From: an uncultured Gammaproteobacteria bacterium
GTDB taxonomy: Bacteria > Pseudomonadota > Gammaproteobacteria > Pseudomonadales > Azotimanducaceae_A
DNA length: 7,495 bases
Reading direction: 5' to 3'
NCBI GenBank assembly: GCA_913041025.1
Contig: CAJWGQ010000141.1
Location: 1-7,495 of the forward strand
Each line of letters starts with the position of its first letter. Within the stretch, counting starts at the first letter, position 1. A program made the translations under genes and the position numbers. Shown here one piece after another: positions 2,144 to 7,495 of this stretch. The notes below the pieces were generated by a model that was not told the DNA's origin, searched no databases, and saw only the letters and a list, made by a program, of their open reading frames with translations.

Positions 2144-2626
2144 ATGGTAAACGTTTCCTTAGGGAGAAATGATAACGAACGAACTGTTTTAAAGCTAATC
2201 CGTGCAATGGAGCTTGGAAATCTTGATCAATCGATAGACGAGCTTTGCAGTTCTGAGTTCATTTGGGCCAACAGTGGACTTTCGACAATCTACGGCTTGG
2301 AACAGCTTCGGGGACATATGGCCAGCGGCGGTTTTTCGAACGATATCCCTATCTTAAAAAAGATGACGCATTTCAGCGCAGAACTCCTAAACCTCGCTAG
2401 CGATAAGGACATTGTCTTTACTGAGAGACTGGATCATCACTGGGATGAATCTGGAAGAGACTTAATGACTCCTCATATCTGCGGAGTGTCCAAGGTAGTT
2501 GATGGGAAAATACTCTCTTTTCGCGATTTTTACGATGTCGCCTGTTACCAACAAAAGCCTGGTGAAATTAAGCCTGACTTTGAATTACAAGCCTTCAGGC
2601 ACGCTCAGAAATCCGGAGTGAAATAG
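2144..2626 (+). CDS. Limonene-1,2-epoxide-hydrolase-like NTF2-fold (SnoaL-like) protein
   Basis: This 160-residue single-domain protein has the cone-shaped NTF2 fold shared by SnoaL, ketosteroid isomerase and limonene epoxide hydrolase. The best match by motif is the epoxide hydrolase: FTERLDHH supplies Arg95 and Asp97, and LSFRDFYD supplies Asp128. The Arg-to-Asp spacing of 33 residues equals that of Rhodococcus LEH (Arg99, Asp101, Asp132) as recalled from its sequence. Asn43 in WANSG matches the water-holding Asn55, while the Tyr53 position is Trp41. The expected role is one-step hydrolysis of an epoxide in a hydrophobic substrate, in the cytoplasm. It is divergent from the crotonase operon and probably belongs to the same catabolic route. 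The start at 2144 has a weak AAGG site; no better start is visible. It ends only five bases before the stop of the glycosyltransferase remnant on the other strand. A ketosteroid-isomerase-like role is the main alternative. Confidence 0.82.
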   Translation: MVNVSLGRNDNERTVLKLIRAMELGNLDQSIDELCSSEFIWANSGLSTIYGLEQLRGHMASGGFSNDIPILKKMTHFSAELLNLASDKDIVFTERLDHHWDESGRDLMTPHICGVSKVVDGKILSFRDFYDVACYQQKPGEIKPDFELQAFRHAQKSGVK

Positions 2627-2631
2627 ATGCT

Positions 2632-2763
2632 TTATCGATAAACCGCGACTCGGGCCCATAGATCATTGGCGAGTTCTTCGATTGGTCGGCTTGCTCCTTC
2701 TGCTAGCCATTTCACAAATGACTCCTGGGTACTACTGAAACTCGCAGCAACGGGGACAAGAAC
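2632..2763 (-). pseudogene. 3' remnant of a second MJ1255-type glycosyltransferase gene
   Basis: Read on the minus strand, this piece ends with a TAA at 2634-2632 and encodes a C-terminus matching that of the intact glycosyltransferase at 4942-5976. From its Thr-Gln-Glu-Ser to the final Tyr-Arg, 22 of 32 residues are identical by hand count, with an unbroken EELANDLWA block. At DNA level 74 of 99 bases match (2632-2730 against 4942-5040), including 17 identical bases at 2654-2670 and 4964-4980. Many changes are conservative (Lys/Arg, Asp/Glu, Ser/Thr, Ile/Leu), so it diverged as a working gene before being truncated. Weak similarity may run on to about 2760, just short of the dehydrogenase stop at 2766; the left boundary of homology is therefore approximate. 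The frame has no ATG and is not expected to be translated on its own. The rest of the gene is absent. Confidence 0.8.
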
Positions 2764-2765
2764 GT

Positions 2766-4106
2766 TCAGACTTTTCCAAATAATGCAGAGCTGCGCCCAA
2801 TGCCTTCGTAGATTAGTCCGTAACCCGCAACGCGAGCTGGGTGATAGATATTGCGACCATCAAAAATAAGTTTCGCCTTAAGAGAATTACTCAAGCGTCG
2901 AAAGTCTGGTTGCTTAAACTCTCTCCATTCGGTGACGACGATTAACGCGTCTGCATTATCCGTTGCACTATATGGATCTTCAACATAGGTAATATTCTGT
3001 TCACCCAAGGCTTTTATGCCAGACTCCAAGGCTACGGGGTCGTAAGCCCTAATGTGTGCGCCTCGAGTAATTAGCTCTTCAATGATAACGAGGCTGGGCG
3101 CTTCTCTTACATCATCGGTCTCAGGCTTGAAAGAAAGACCCCAAACCCCAAAACAATGGCCAGACAGATCTTCACCAAAGTGACGGCAGACTTTGTGGAC
3201 AATTAATCTTTTTTGTTGACTATTTCTGGACTCAACCGCTCGAAAAATTCCCCCGTCAATACCAGCGTCTTTCGCCATCCTGATCATTGCTTTTATATCT
3301 TTTGGGAAACAAGAGCCACCATAACCACAACCGGGATAAATGAAGGAAGATCCTATACGACTATCGGAGCCGATGCCTCTGCGAACATTCTCGACATCAA
3401 TTCCGAATTCATCACACATAAGCGAAACCTCGTTTATAAAAGAAATCTTGGTCGCTAGCATAGCGTTCGCAGCATACTTGATCATTTCTGCATCACGGAC
3501 ACCAACATACTGGATACGATCCTCTTTTTTAGCGAATGCCTCATATAACTCTTGCATTATCTTTTGACTCTTTGGATTATTCGTTCCAACAACAATTCGA
3601 TCAGGAAACATAAAGTCCTTAATAGCATTACCTTCCCGCAAAAACTCTGGATTACTTACCACGTCAAACTCTACGCTAAGATCCCGATGCTTAAGTGCCT
3701 CGGTAATAATCTCTCGAACTTTATCGCCTGTACCAACGGGGACCGTAGATTTATTAACGATAACTGTTGGTTTAACCATGCATTCACCAAGACTTCTTGC
3801 AACTGCTTCCACCTGCATTAAATCGGCACTTCCATCTTCTTTGGGCGGAGTCCCTACGGCAATGAAAGTTACTTCAGATTGATTTACAGCATTTACAAGA
3901 TCATCTGAGAAGGTTAGACGCCCCGCTCCCAAATTATTATTTACCAAAGTCTCAAGTCCTGGTTCATGAATTGGAATAACACCTTGTCGTAATTGCGCTA
4001 ACTTGGCTTTATTAATGTCTATACAGGTAACATTGTTCCCCATTTCGGCGAAACAAGTTCCAGTCACGAGTCCCACATAGCCGGTGCCAATAATCGTCAG
4101 CCGCAT
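2766..4106 (-). CDS. ugd: UDP-glucose 6-dehydrogenase
   Basis: This 446-residue cytoplasmic enzyme oxidises UDP-glucose to UDP-glucuronate with two NAD+. Seen: N-terminal Rossmann motif GTGYVGL at residues 7-13, FIAVGTPPKEDGS at 81-93, STVPVGT at 120-126, SNPEFLREG with Glu157 at 151-159, MIKYAANA with Lys210 at 208-215, the catalytic cysteine Cys266 in GGSCFPKD, GLSFKPETDD at 323-332, and DGRNIYHP at 416-423. The length is normal for the family, and the last motif favours UDP-glucose over GDP-mannose as substrate. The final nine residues after GIGR (RSSALFGKV without the Arg) lie next to the glycosyltransferase remnant and could be a junction product. The start ATG at 4106 follows the galU stop by 7 bases, so its expression is coupled to galU, which supplies its substrate. 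Confidence 0.95.
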   Translation of the reverse strand: MRLTIIGTGYVGLVTGTCFAEMGNNVTCIDINKAKLAQLRQGVIPIHEPGLETLVNNNLGAGRLTFSDDLVNAVNQSEVTFIAVGTPPKEDGSADLMQVEAVARSLGECMVKPTVIVNKSTVPVGTGDKVREIITEALKHRDLSVEFDVVSNPEFLREGNAIKDFMFPDRIVVGTNNPKSQKIMQELYEAFAKKEDRIQYVGVRDAEMIKYAANAMLATKISFINEVSLMCDEFGIDVENVRRGIGSDSRIGSSFIYPGCGYGGSCFPKDIKAMIRMAKDAGIDGGIFRAVESRNSQQKRLIVHKVCRHFGEDLSGHCFGVWGLSFKPETDDVREAPSLVIIEELITRGAHIRAYDPVALESGIKALGEQNITYVEDPYSATDNADALIVVTEWREFKQPDFRRLSNSLKAKLIFDGRNIYHPARVAGYGLIYEGIGRSSALFGKV

Positions 4107-4113
4107 CTACCTA

Positions 4114-4932
4114 TCAGACCTTACGATGATATTTATCATAGACGTAATTTGTTGCTTCTACGTAACCTTTTAAACTTCCGCAGTCGAAACGTGTCCCATT
4201 GAATTTGTAAGCAAGGACCATACTATTTTTTGCCTGCTCACAAATGGCATCTGTTATCTGAATTTCGCCAGCAGCACCAGGCTCAAGAGTACGAATAATA
4301 GAAAAAATATCGGGGGTAAGAATATACCGGCCAATAACCGCAAGATTTGTAGGGGCATCCTCAGGTGCTGGTTTCTCTATCATATTCGAAACCTTGATTA
4401 ACCCCTCGTCGATTTCTTTCCCATCAACAATACCGTATTTGTCAGTTTGATCAGCGGGCACCTCTTCTATTGCAACAATACTGCATTGATAATGGCTAAA
4501 AAGCCCGACCATTTGTTTGATTACACCGCTATCACAAAAATCATCTGCTAAAATAACTCCAAATGGCTCATTACCAATAAGAGTTTCTCCAGTCAGAATT
4601 GCATGACCAAGACCCTTCACCTCGGCCTGTCGAGTATAGGAGAAAGCACATTTATCAATCATATCTCGGACGTCGCTAAGTAGCGCTTCTTTAACACTTC
4701 CCGCTATCTGATGTTCTAACTCATAAGAAATGTCAAAGTGATCTTCTATCGCTCGTTTCCCTCGTCCAGAAACGAAGCCAATCTCTGTAAATCCTGCCTC
4801 GATTGCTTCTTCAACTCCGAACTGAATCAGGGGCTTGTTTACGATTGGAAGCATTTCCTTAGGCATAGCCTTGGTTGCAGGTAGAAACCTAGTTCCATAA
4901 CCTGCTGCTGGGAAAAGACATTTTTTCAGCAT
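4114..4932 (-). CDS. galU: UTP-glucose-1-phosphate uridylyltransferase (UDP-glucose pyrophosphorylase)
   Basis: This 272-residue enzyme makes UDP-glucose and pyrophosphate from UTP and glucose 1-phosphate. Seen: the nucleotide-binding loop AAGYGTRFLPATKAMPKEM at residues 9-27, GLGHA at 107-111, the metal-binding ILADD region at 127-131, MIEKP with Lys187 at 184-188, IGRYIL at 200-205, GEIQITDAI at 222-230 and RFDCGSLKGY at 248-257. Length is slightly short but within the usual range for bacterial GalU. The start at 4932 lies 9 bases after the glycosyltransferase stop. Having galU inside this operon, just before the dehydrogenase, means the operon supplies its own UDP-glucose and UDP-glucuronate. 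No key residue appears to be missing. Confidence 0.95.
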   Translation of the reverse strand: MLKKCLFPAAGYGTRFLPATKAMPKEMLPIVNKPLIQFGVEEAIEAGFTEIGFVSGRGKRAIEDHFDISYELEHQIAGSVKEALLSDVRDMIDKCAFSYTRQAEVKGLGHAILTGETLIGNEPFGVILADDFCDSGVIKQMVGLFSHYQCSIVAIEEVPADQTDKYGIVDGKEIDEGLIKVSNMIEKPAPEDAPTNLAVIGRYILTPDIFSIIRTLEPGAAGEIQITDAICEQAKNSMVLAYKFNGTRFDCGSLKGYVEATNYVYDKYHRKV

Positions 4933-4941
4933 ATCAATTGC

Positions 4942-5976
4942 TCATCGATAAACGCCGACGTCAGCCCATAGATCATTGGCCAGCTCTTCCAGCGGTTGTG
5001 TAGCTCCTGCCAGTAGCCATCTCACCAATGAATCTTGGGTATTTGGATAGGTGACTTTTATTGAGTCGTCCTGCTTTAACCAACTTCGGATGTCTTCGAT
5101 CGAGAGTTTTTTTACAACTGTTGCATAGCCAAGTTTTGATAATGCGGCTCCGTTCGACTGTTGCTCGATTTGGTTGCCCAGCGGTTTCGTAAAGACTCTG
5201 ATTCCAAGAGTTAAGCACTCACTAATGAGTTCAAACCCGGTGTTGCATATTGCGACGTTTGAGGTGATGAGATCGTCTTTAAAAGTTGTTCGAGAGATTT
5301 TTCGTTTATGGATATTTCCTTCGTTGGAGTTTTCGAACTTGGGGTGATAAACATAAAACTCATGATCAGAAATTTTCTGAAGACCTCTGGTTAAGTTTTC
5401 TGGTTCTTCGAAAGGCAGGTAAACGATCACTTTATTATTTTGAATTTTCCTCTCGGACGCTTGATCAACATCTACAATGGGAGGCAGAATCGGCTGGTTA
5501 AAATGATGCCAGTGTAAACCAACTTTTTTAGTGACTGGCGCGAAAAGTTTCATGATGTTTTTTGATAAGGGTTTCCCGCCTTGAATTGGTATATCGTAAT
5601 AGAAAGCATACTGATGCCCTATCCCAATGCTCTCTTTTTTGTTAATTCTTGCTGCCCATGCAGTAATTGGTTCATAATCTGTGACTAACAAATCATAGTC
5701 GCTAATTTTTAGTTGTCTGATATCTCTTATTAGTTGGCTCGGGTTAAAGTTAAATAGTGTTTTTACTAATTGAACCCCGCCATTTTTGATAACAAACGTC
5801 GCGCCTTCTCGCCAAATGATTTCCTTAGCTTTAATCGGGAGTTTCTCTTCTAACCTCCCAGAAATGAGCGCATCAACCTCGCACTTAGGGAAGAATGTCT
5901 CGATAGTTTCCGTCATTGCGATGGCTCGGGTGAGGTGCCCGTTGCCAGTCCCTTGAACACCGTAGAGTATTTTCAA
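4942..5976 (-). CDS. MJ1255/VC2487-type GT-B glycosyltransferase
   Basis: This 344-residue protein is a GT-B-fold glycosyltransferase of the MJ1255/VC2487 group, related to the GT28-like enzymes that act on lipid acceptors. Seen: the N-terminal motif GVQGTGNGHLTRA at residues 6-18, LLVTDYEPITAWAAR at 96-110, IGIGHQYAF at 117-125, and the C-terminal nucleotide-sugar site NTGFELISECLTLGIR at 245-260 followed by KPLGNQIEQQSNGAAL at 264-279. There is no signal peptide or membrane span. The start is a TTG at 5976 that overlaps the PAP2 stop in TTGA; no Shine-Dalgarno is visible, so translation probably depends on coupling. The next Met (21) would remove the glycine-rich motif, so the TTG is preferred. 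The donor is inferred to be UDP-glucuronate or UDP-glucose, made by the two genes that follow; the acceptor is unknown but the PAP2 neighbour points to a lipid. Its last 33 codons are matched by a remnant at 2632-2730. Confidence 0.88.
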   Translation of the reverse strand: MKILYGVQGTGNGHLTRAIAMTETIETFFPKCEVDALISGRLEEKLPIKAKEIIWREGATFVIKNGGVQLVKTLFNFNPSQLIRDIRQLKISDYDLLVTDYEPITAWAARINKKESIGIGHQYAFYYDIPIQGGKPLSKNIMKLFAPVTKKVGLHWHHFNQPILPPIVDVDQASERKIQNNKVIVYLPFEEPENLTRGLQKISDHEFYVYHPKFENSNEGNIHKRKISRTTFKDDLITSNVAICNTGFELISECLTLGIRVFTKPLGNQIEQQSNGAALSKLGYATVVKKLSIEDIRSWLKQDDSIKVTYPNTQDSLVRWLLAGATQPLEELANDLWADVGVYR

Positions 5977-6509
5977 GAGAGTTGAACAAAACTAAGATAG
6001 GCAATCGATGATCCCAAAAGACTTCCGACGAGCACGTCGGTAGGGAAATGAACCCCTAGCACCAATCTTGATAATGCTACCGATCCCGCCCAAAAATAAA
6101 AAATTGCAAAAACAGGTCCGTAGAATAGCACTAGAAGTGACACTATAAGGAAGGCGGCCGACGTATGCCCAGATGGGAAACTAAATTCATCTCCTGCTTC
6201 AATGACACTCTGATAGTTGGATACAATATTTGCCGGTCGCCGTCGCTTTAGGCCGTTCTTCATTACCGCGTAAATTAATCTCTCCGCAGCGAATGCGCTT
6301 ATCGCGATTTGAACGAATTCTGAGATTTGAGAAAAATCAAAAACCAAAAGAAAAACAGGCGTTAACAGATACAGATAACCGTCTCCGGAAAATGAAACTA
6401 CCTTTGCCAGCCGGGCAAGAGTTCCCGAAGCACTACCCGATGAAAAGACCCTGAAAGCCATAATGTCCCAGTGGTGGATCATATTTAGAAGGTAAAACGC
6501 ACTGTTCAT
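5973..6509 (-). CDS. PAP2-family membrane phosphatase
   Basis: This 178-residue integral membrane phosphatase carries the complete three-part PAP2 signature: K84 x6 R91-P92 (KNGLKRRRP), PSGH at residues 112-115 with His115, and SRx5HxxxD at 147-158 with His154 and Asp158. Hydrophobic stretches lie around 44-58, 64-83, 117-148 (probably two spans) and 159-176. Members remove phosphate from phosphatidate, undecaprenyl pyrophosphate or related lipids at the membrane. Here, as first gene of an operon with a glycosyltransferase and UDP-sugar genes, release of diacylglycerol as an acceptor is an attractive inference, with lipid-carrier recycling the main alternative. The start is uncertain: the ATG at 6509 is chosen, but an in-frame TTG at 6530 and an ATG at residue 10 are possible, and none has a clear ribosome site. 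The stop overlaps the next gene's start in TTGA. Confidence 0.88.
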   Translation of the reverse strand: MNSAFYLLNMIHHWDIMAFRVFSSGSASGTLARLAKVVSFSGDGYLYLLTPVFLLVFDFSQISEFVQIAISAFAAERLIYAVMKNGLKRRRPANIVSNYQSVIEAGDEFSFPSGHTSAAFLIVSLLVLFYGPVFAIFYFWAGSVALSRLVLGVHFPTDVLVGSLLGSSIAYLSFVQLS

Positions 6510-6683
6510 GAGGGCGGATCTTAGAGCCAAAAAATAAAGATTTAAAAAACAATAAGTTTATTTTATTAACTTTTCGTTTAGAGTGGGTTATGAATTGAAA
6601 GACATTGGTATAAAGGCCAATCAGCAACTAAAAGAGCTATAAGGAAAATAGAAAAGTTTTTTTAACAACTAGAGGGAATCTTT
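6510..6683. promoter_or_regulatory. Divergent promoter region between the glycolipid operon and the kinase-like gene
   Basis: This AT-rich stretch separates the PAP2 gene (leftward) from the kinase-like gene (rightward). Both promoters should lie here. Candidate elements are only suggestive: plus-strand TTGAAA at 6595-6600, TATAAA at 6609-6614 and TATAAG at 6638-6643, none pairing at ideal spacing, and a small inverted repeat AATAA-GT-TTATT at 6551-6562. A clear AGAGGGA ribosome site at 6671-6677 serves the ATG at 6684. No open reading frame with protein-like features and no terminator hairpin is seen. Confidence 0.45.
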
Positions 6684-7495
6684 ATGAGTTTGCCCAAATT
6701 CCCCGAGGGATTCTCGGCTGACTTTCTAAATCTGACTTTGTCAGAGAAGTTTTTGCCCCCAGGGGTCTTGATTCAAGAGGTTTCTATAGAGCCGTTAGCC
6801 GAGGGGACGGGAATGATGGCTGATATCTCGAAGCTAACATTCAAATATAATACCGAATCTCCGCACCTCCCACTTTCAGTAATAGCTAAATACGCGTCTG
6901 AAAACCTTACTAATCGTGAAGTGGCGATGAACATGAATTTATACGAAAGAGAAACTAGGTTTGCAGATGAATTAGATCCGAAAACAGAGGCAAGGTGTCC
7001 AGCTTTTTATTTCTGCGCGCTTGATGGGGATAATTTCCTGATACTCATGGAAGACCTCAGTGATTATGAAGTTGGAGATCAGGCGTTGGGAGCTAATCTT
7101 GAGCAAACCGAGTTAGCAATTGACGAATTAGCGAAGCTCCATACTGCGTTTTGGGATAAAACTTCCAGGCTGAAATGGGTCCCTGGGATTGCAAACAGTT
7201 ACCACGCAGATAATATGCGGAACTGGTCCAGGAGTGGTTGGGATCCAATGGTCGAAGCCTTTGGAGAATTCGTGCCCGAGCATGTGCGTGAACATCGAGA
7301 TCGGTTCCTAGATGCAGTGCCCGCTTTGCAGCTGGAGCGAATGAGTGGCCCCAATACTCTCTGCCACGGAGATTTTAGGATGCCAAATCTACTCTTCGGT
7401 GTTGAACCACATCATCATCGGCTGGCAATCCTTGATTGGCAGGGACCATTAATAGCCAAGGGAATGTTTGATGTCGCTTTACTGCTTGGCCAAAA
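6684..7495 (+). CDS. EcKinase/APH-fold phosphotransferase, C-terminus cut by window edge
   Basis: The first 270 residues of a small-molecule kinase of the protein-kinase-like (aminoglycoside phosphotransferase) superfamily are present; the frame is open to the end of the window. Seen: a likely ATP-binding lysine, Lys69, in VIAKYA, a helix-C-like YERETRF with Glu88 or Glu90 at 87-93, a hinge LILMEDL at 119-125, the catalytic loop LCHGDFRMPNLLF at 226-238 (His228, Asp230, Asn235) and the metal-binding ILDWQGP at 249-255 (Asp251). The DWQ form in place of DFG fits the EcKinase/DUF1679 branch, which includes ecdysteroid kinases. Bacterial members usually run well beyond 330 residues, so about a fifth or more is missing. 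The substrate is unknown; a lipid or steroid alcohol is possible given the catabolic genes at the other end of the window. The start is firm: AGAGGGA lies 6 bases before the ATG. Confidence 0.85.
   Translation, partial: MSLPKFPEGFSADFLNLTLSEKFLPPGVLIQEVSIEPLAEGTGMMADISKLTFKYNTESPHLPLSVIAKYASENLTNREVAMNMNLYERETRFADELDPKTEARCPAFYFCALDGDNFLILMEDLSDYEVGDQALGANLEQTELAIDELAKLHTAFWDKTSRLKWVPGIANSYHADNMRNWSRSGWDPMVEAFGEFVPEHVREHRDRFLDAVPALQLERMSGPNTLCHGDFRMPNLLFGVEPHHHRLAILDWQGPLIAKGMFDVALLLGQ

Follow-up and report, generated by a model that had tools for sequence, protein, structure and literature searches.

The closest described counterparts of the arrangement reported here are the displacement of effector modules in Vibrio cholerae and that of Rhs C-terminal regions. 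For the former, homology-facilitated illegitimate recombination, which is defined in PMC3240628, has been proposed, and the proposal covers the shifted-back 3' end of the older gene (PMC5361080, in the passages on effector modules). According to the same passages, the process occurs in other organisms at frequencies several orders of magnitude below those of ordinary recombination, and Rhs C-terminal displacement leaves ‘orphaned’ 3' regions (PMC5361080).

The 7,495 nucleotides analyzed in this work (hereafter, the window) resemble the Vibrio case, as far as it is depicted in those passages, in that foreign genes are found at one point, with one presumably homologous and one non-homologous side and with a displaced 3' part downstream. 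They differ from it in the cargo, which consists of sugar-nucleotide genes, and in the leftover, a tail of 32 codons without sign of function. As in the Rhs systems of the same source passages, older 3' ends remain behind a new insert; unlike in those systems, neither a repeated series nor a toxin-immunity logic was seen at this locus. Relative to the sister genomes, foreign DNA is inserted, and one of its borders lacks evident homology and is accompanied by sequence loss, which are two of the features that homology-facilitated illegitimate recombination requires; the locus would be a clean instance of this known process. We consider it probable that the remnant located behind ugd is a recombination scar, originated when a foreign galU-ugd pair was spliced in behind a glycosyltransferase (GT) gene, leaving a GT tail.

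Read along the minus strand, the window contains PAP2, GT, galU, ugd and the remnant, followed by the convergent LEH gene (Table 1). The genes beyond LEH, on the right, were presumed to be ECH, OB and thiolase, and the left-end gene to be APH, labels assigned from the look of their sequences and not from a family search. The full GT matched TIGR00661, the MJ1255/VC2487 family, with 198.8 bits (cut-off 195.9) over residues 2-310, and is a member of it. The product of ugd also matched the Pfam UDPG_MGDP_dh domains, and its matches to the UDP-glucose dehydrogenase equivalogs TuaD, AglM and PRK15057 were below their cut-offs.

Table 1. Coordinates of the features of the locus in the window
Feature	Position	Strand	Remarks
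LEH (limonene-epoxide-hydrolase fold) gene	2144..2626	+	Native right-hand neighbour, convergent with the remnant
GT 3' tail (32 codons + stop), apparently of a second allele of the MJ1255/VC2487-type GT	2632..2730	-	22/32 residues to the full gene, 28/33 to P0004
Join between the two scraps	2731..2737	-	Bases assignable with confidence to neither scrap
Epimerase 5' scrap (~11 codons)	2738..2769	-	CTG where G031/G179 have ATG; overlaps the ugd stop
ugd, UDP-glucose 6-dehydrogenase, of apparently foreign (g15-like) origin	2766..4106	-	TIGR03026 (subfamily) over cut-off; 88% to G031/G179
galU, UTP-glucose-1-phosphate uridylyltransferase, apparently of the same imported block as ugd	4114..4932	-	TIGR01099 over cut-off
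Full-length MJ1255/VC2487-family GT	4942..5976	-	TTG start; PF13528; TIGR00661
PAP2-family phosphatase, GT partner upstream	5973..6530	-	Found in 58/95 GT loci

Bases 2632-2730 and 4942-5040 are identical at 75 of 99 positions, without gaps, in the same minus-strand frame and with the same stop, and this bears out the match in frame and with equivalent stops for which a first-pass annotation of this DNA had counted 74 identities. The remnant corresponds to residues 313-344 of the full GT, with which it shares 22 of 32 residues and the position of the stop, and the base differences per codon position are 3, 8 and 13. The similarity is above chance, a point on which that annotation had let its reading depend: blastn returned E = 7e-17 (75/98), and the best ungapped score against the rest of the window was 52, the maximum over 100 single-base shuffles of the query being 18. 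The view that the copies are too divergent for a recent duplication also holds, given that 24 of 99 bases differ, whereas the window and the closest genome (G001, sharing 79% of sampled words) differ by 0.2-0.4% over GT and ugd; since the copies are far from near-identical, a recent duplication was rejected. A protein search close to the one suggested for the MJ1255/VC2487 family did not recover the remnant: positions 2632-2766 gave no match to Pfam or NCBIfam profiles, and the remnant remained below the TIGR00661 cut-off. It is thus a fragment and not a member of TIGR00661. Indeed, the profile match in the full GT ends at residue 310, before the tail, and a family-profile search misses the latter for this reason; the tail derives from the 3' end of a gene of this family but, unlike the family members, it lies beyond the profile-matched part and is assignable only through orthologues. 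G001 has an identical arrangement (99% over 341 bases, the second copy at 77%), and the whole window aligns to it in a single alignment at 98.99% with 76 mismatches; because the same layout extends across the full-window alignment, the remnant is not an artefact of one assembly.

The remnant had been thought to abut the ugd stop. This is not the case, since 35 bases (2731-2765) intervene, most of which resemble the start of a sugar epimerase. Window positions 2738-4933 align to G179 and G031, two genomes of genus g15, in one block (2205 columns, 85%) that spans galU, ugd and about 30 bases past the ugd stop; in both genomes ugd is followed by a NAD-dependent sugar epimerase (PF01370) whose ATG overlaps the ugd stop in an ATGA. 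Behind the epimerase, G179 harbors an RmlD-like gene and an APS kinase, and G031 has ORFs with the same beginnings. The 32 bases behind the ugd stop of the window agree with the G031 epimerase start, at fixed position, in 23 of 32 cases (binomial p of 3e-8 at 0.25 and of 1e-6 at 0.3, for a stretch whose length was picked after looking); counted from the CTG, the agreement is 26/36 and 30/45. Since these bases resemble an epimerase 5' end and 2632-2730 matches the GT tail, the segment 2632-2769 appears to be a double scrap, with an epimerase start (2738-2769) running in frame into a GT tail (2632-2730). The g15 alignment ends at 2738 and that to the locus of the sister genome G016 at 2730; epimerase codon 11 is joined to the GT tail without evident homology, and that GT copy lacks its first ~312 codons. 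Two things had escaped the first-pass annotation, namely that an epimerase scrap separates ugd from the remnant and that galU-ugd is of foreign origin; the epimerase scrap and the GT tail each fall below the 60-residue limit of the ORF listing.

The organization of the corresponding region in the sister genomes is different. In G016 (L014 and L015), G017 (L005) and G012 (L006), PAP2 is followed by GT and the latter directly by the convergent LEH, without galU or ugd. The window aligns to L015 in two blocks, 1-2730 (82%) and 4941-7495 (83%), which overlap on L015 by 100 bases, 6323-6422, corresponding to the GT tail; to L014 the alignment covers 684-2730 and 4941-7495 of the window and overlaps in the same manner, at 6937-7036. 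The GT-PAP2-APH side of the window is 83-84% identical to G016 throughout. The G016 locus is present on two contigs, whose identities to the window are about 1-2 points apart and which probably represent two strains in one bin. The stops of GT and LEH are separated by 6 bases in L014 and those of the remnant and LEH by 5 in the window, and on the basis of this matching spacing the remnant stands where the GT tail is natively found.

A wider survey was based on 80 of 133 relatives and on 95 fetched GT loci, a set that includes two loci from some of the genomes and in which many loci span just 4 kb or are truncated by contig ends. LEH was found in 6 of the 95 loci, and in all 6 GT stands beside LEH without galU or ugd; these loci correspond to three genomes, the two G016 loci having been fetched twice. 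No galU or ugd adjacent to and behind GT on the same strand was found among the 95 loci outside the window and G001; farther-off matches occur in 10 of them at 22-50% identity, and the one closest to GT, a dehydrogenase with 28% identity in L077, is encoded 240 bases behind it on the other strand. A donor order GT-galU-ugd-epimerase was likewise not found outside the window and G001, either in 206 family genomes (GT in 10) or in the 95 loci. As for ugd, the epimerase follows it in L095, L096, L097, L099 and L102 and is absent in L098, L100, L101, L103, L104 and L105, and no GT remnant was detected behind any of the 11 ugd loci of relatives (~240 bases translated in each). The suggestion of an ancestral order in which GT followed ugd is therefore not upheld: in 5 of the 11 loci that place is taken by the epimerase, and the GT without galU and ugd borders LEH.

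The phylogenetic analysis of ugd points to a source outside the genus. Matches with E of 1e-150 or better were found in 38 of 206 family genomes; after G001 the best were G031 and G179 (88% each), followed by G181 and G180 (77% each), all belonging to g15, and in the 8 other genomes of the window's own genus in that list the identity was 57-68%. A tree was built from 27 ugd proteins, comprising those of 12 relatives' loci and of the window and 14 of the best 120 listed proteins. In it, G031, G179, P0122 and P0123 cluster with the sequences of the window, G001 and P0121 (100/100); this cluster belongs to a set of 13 rows that also includes G181 and G180 (96/95) and lies apart from G012, G014 and G017. 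Sixteen of the fetched loci had been chosen for this tree, and L098, L103, L105 and L134, among them G016's own ugd (57%), were dropped because the frame-finding motif was absent. The rpoB gene, found in 6 of the 8 genomes asked (G017 and G012 being the two without it), runs the opposite way, with 93.6% between G001 and G016 and 81% between G001 and either G031 or G179, which, together with the grouping of ugd with g15, indicates horizontal transfer. The direction would be from a g15-like source into this locus, given that the g15 operon is longer and intact and that the epimerase is cut off here; the actual donor could also be a third, unsampled lineage. Together with the sister genomes, these data suggest that galU-ugd arrived after the split from G016 and point to a g15-like donor lineage.

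Based on these comparisons, we suggest that the ancestral locus had the order PAP2, GT and convergent LEH, as in the sister genomes, and that galU, ugd and an epimerase start, ultimately deriving from a g15-like exopolysaccharide operon, were placed behind a full-length GT allele. At its far end, the insert would have been connected with the tail of another GT allele, beside LEH, at a point where no homology is evident. The likely route is homology-facilitated illegitimate recombination, with a homologous anchor on the PAP2/GT side and a non-homologous join on the epimerase/GT-tail side. In this case the full gene would have come in, the tail would stem from the allele that was resident, and the scar would have no function of its own. 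The parts of this scenario that the comparisons show are the double scrap, the native GT-LEH order in the sisters, the foreign placement of ugd and, over 33 columns, the kinship of the tail to the P0004 type. The earlier proposal of a recombination using the shared 3' end survives in its first half, the right-hand join being one between epimerase and GT without evident homology. A gene import would thus have been caught with both scraps legible, the 11-codon start of a lost epimerase and the 32-codon tail of a GT allele.

The galU-ugd pair makes UDP-glucose and UDP-glucuronate. The functional gain of the import is presumably this intact pair, now located directly behind PAP2-GT. A second ugd match was not found in G001, a genome that is 71% complete.

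The relationships of the GT tail were assessed among the best 120 of 5092 protein matches for GT (the matches listed for ugd and LEH were the best 120 of 7998 and of 284, respectively). Over the last 33 residues, which include one codon of the join, the remnant shares, among the matches listed, 28 with P0004, 26 with P0031 and P0003, and 22 with P0002 and P0001, and the full GT shares 33 with P0001 (98% identical to it), 29 with P0021 and 28 with P0002. A tree of the 33 columns joins the remnant to P0004 (95/86) within a P0003/P0031/P0004 group (100/98), apart from the full GT and P0002. Over the length of the full GT, P0002-P0004 are 81-87% identical to it. The tail and the full gene therefore appear, over these 33 columns, to be alleles of one orthologous GT. 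The reading of the tail as part of a different GT subfamily was ruled out on these 33 columns, because its neighbours in the tree, P0004, P0003 and P0031, are close orthologues of the full gene and because the tail and P0002-P0004 are alleles of one orthologue. The two sources that had been envisaged for the piece fare differently, the allele of a related strain or species being retained and the paralog of a different subfamily being discarded. Identity along the length of the full GT to P0002, P0003, P0004 and P0005 revealed no clear switch of affinity within it of the kind expected at a crossover on the PAP2/GT side.

A possible, although less probable, alternative is that the full gene was the resident one and that the GT tail came with galU-ugd, for instance from a strain already bearing the epimerase/GT-tail fusion beside LEH. 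The full gene still has PAP2 as its partner, and its alignment to G016 extends over the GT-PAP2-APH side. Compared with the type of the sister G016 (P0005), the remnant is no closer (19/33) than the full GT (21/33), so that G016 does not favour the remnant as the resident allele. However, the fusion would have had to form in the donor by a like join, and the event would be merely moved. The differences between the window and G001 bear on the same point. They number 57/2626 at 1-2626, 2/143 in scar and spacer and 17/4726 at 2770-7495, and the change in their density falls near the scar. Scaled by the divergence from G016 (L015) and compared by Fisher tests, GT lies below ECH (4 against 185 vs 16 against 117, p 0.0006) and below all four right-hand genes (4:185 vs 57:391, p 6e-6), GT and PAP2 lie below ECH and LEH (8:280 vs 29:210, p 3e-5), and APH and GT are alike (5:97 vs 4:185, p 0.29). 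Because this change falls near the scar, it weakly suggests that the GT-galU-ugd side arrived as one block, and the higher differences on the LEH side fit an imported GT block somewhat better than a resident full gene. On the other hand, the differences are low over APH, PAP2, GT, galU and ugd alike, as the alternative would have it, and for the same reason a block boundary on the APH/PAP2 side is invisible. The right-hand differences are patchy, clustered in short tracts (303-546, 1616-2054, 2386-2485) and lacking at 547-912, 1079-1615 and 2055-2385, a pattern that appears to be that of repeated homologous exchange; since they are clustered with difference-free stretches between them, a later exchange on the LEH side explains the contrast equally.

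An ancestral tandem of divergent GT paralogs, between which galU-ugd was inserted with deletion of most of the second GT, would also account for two GT tails of different alleles in one locus. This appears quite improbable and was rejected, in that no second GT match was seen in the 95 GT loci (many of which are 4 kb or contig-cut, the remnant locus of G001 not being among them), the sister order has a single GT beside LEH and, in the tree, the tail falls among orthologues of the full gene. Still less credible is the reading of the 45-codon in-frame fusion, which begins with the CTG at 2769 and stops at 2632, as a small protein translated in coupling with ugd: its frame runs through the join without a stop and does so in G001 as well, and its start overlaps the ugd stop like the epimerase start in G031, but translation would have to begin at a CTG, the first common start codon, a GTG, leaves 27 codons, one join in three is expected to leave the frame open, and the single strain difference within the frame alters an amino acid; the sequence gave no sign that the scar is in use.

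We can further speculate, although we regard it as unlikely, that incoming DNA docks repeatedly at the GT/LEH junction: anchored in PAP2-GT, it would bring varied sugar-nucleotide genes behind GT and push the previous GT tail back each time; one such event is seen here. If true, a displacement as in the Vibrio and Rhs loci would serve surface-sugar diversity in uncultured bacteria. Among viral contigs just two distant GT relatives were present (43% and 30%), the former on a 190 kb IMG/VR contig (L156, 5001-6020).

The donor-like operon deserves a few additional remarks. In the operon regions at L145 11711-16293 and L146 1312-5966, the ugd genes of G031 and G179 are 99.8% identical, vs 93% for rpoB of the two genomes, and the epimerase, RmlD-like and APS-kinase ORFs beside them begin alike in the two genomes; hence, the galU-ugd-epimerase operon seems to be mobile within g15 itself. 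More sulfate-assimilation genes are found in G179 near the APS kinase, and this gene content suggests that the g15 operon makes a sulfated polysaccharide. In the same genome (L145) a 66% relative of GT is located at 5986-7020, 7 kb from, and facing, the 88% ugd at 14118-15458.
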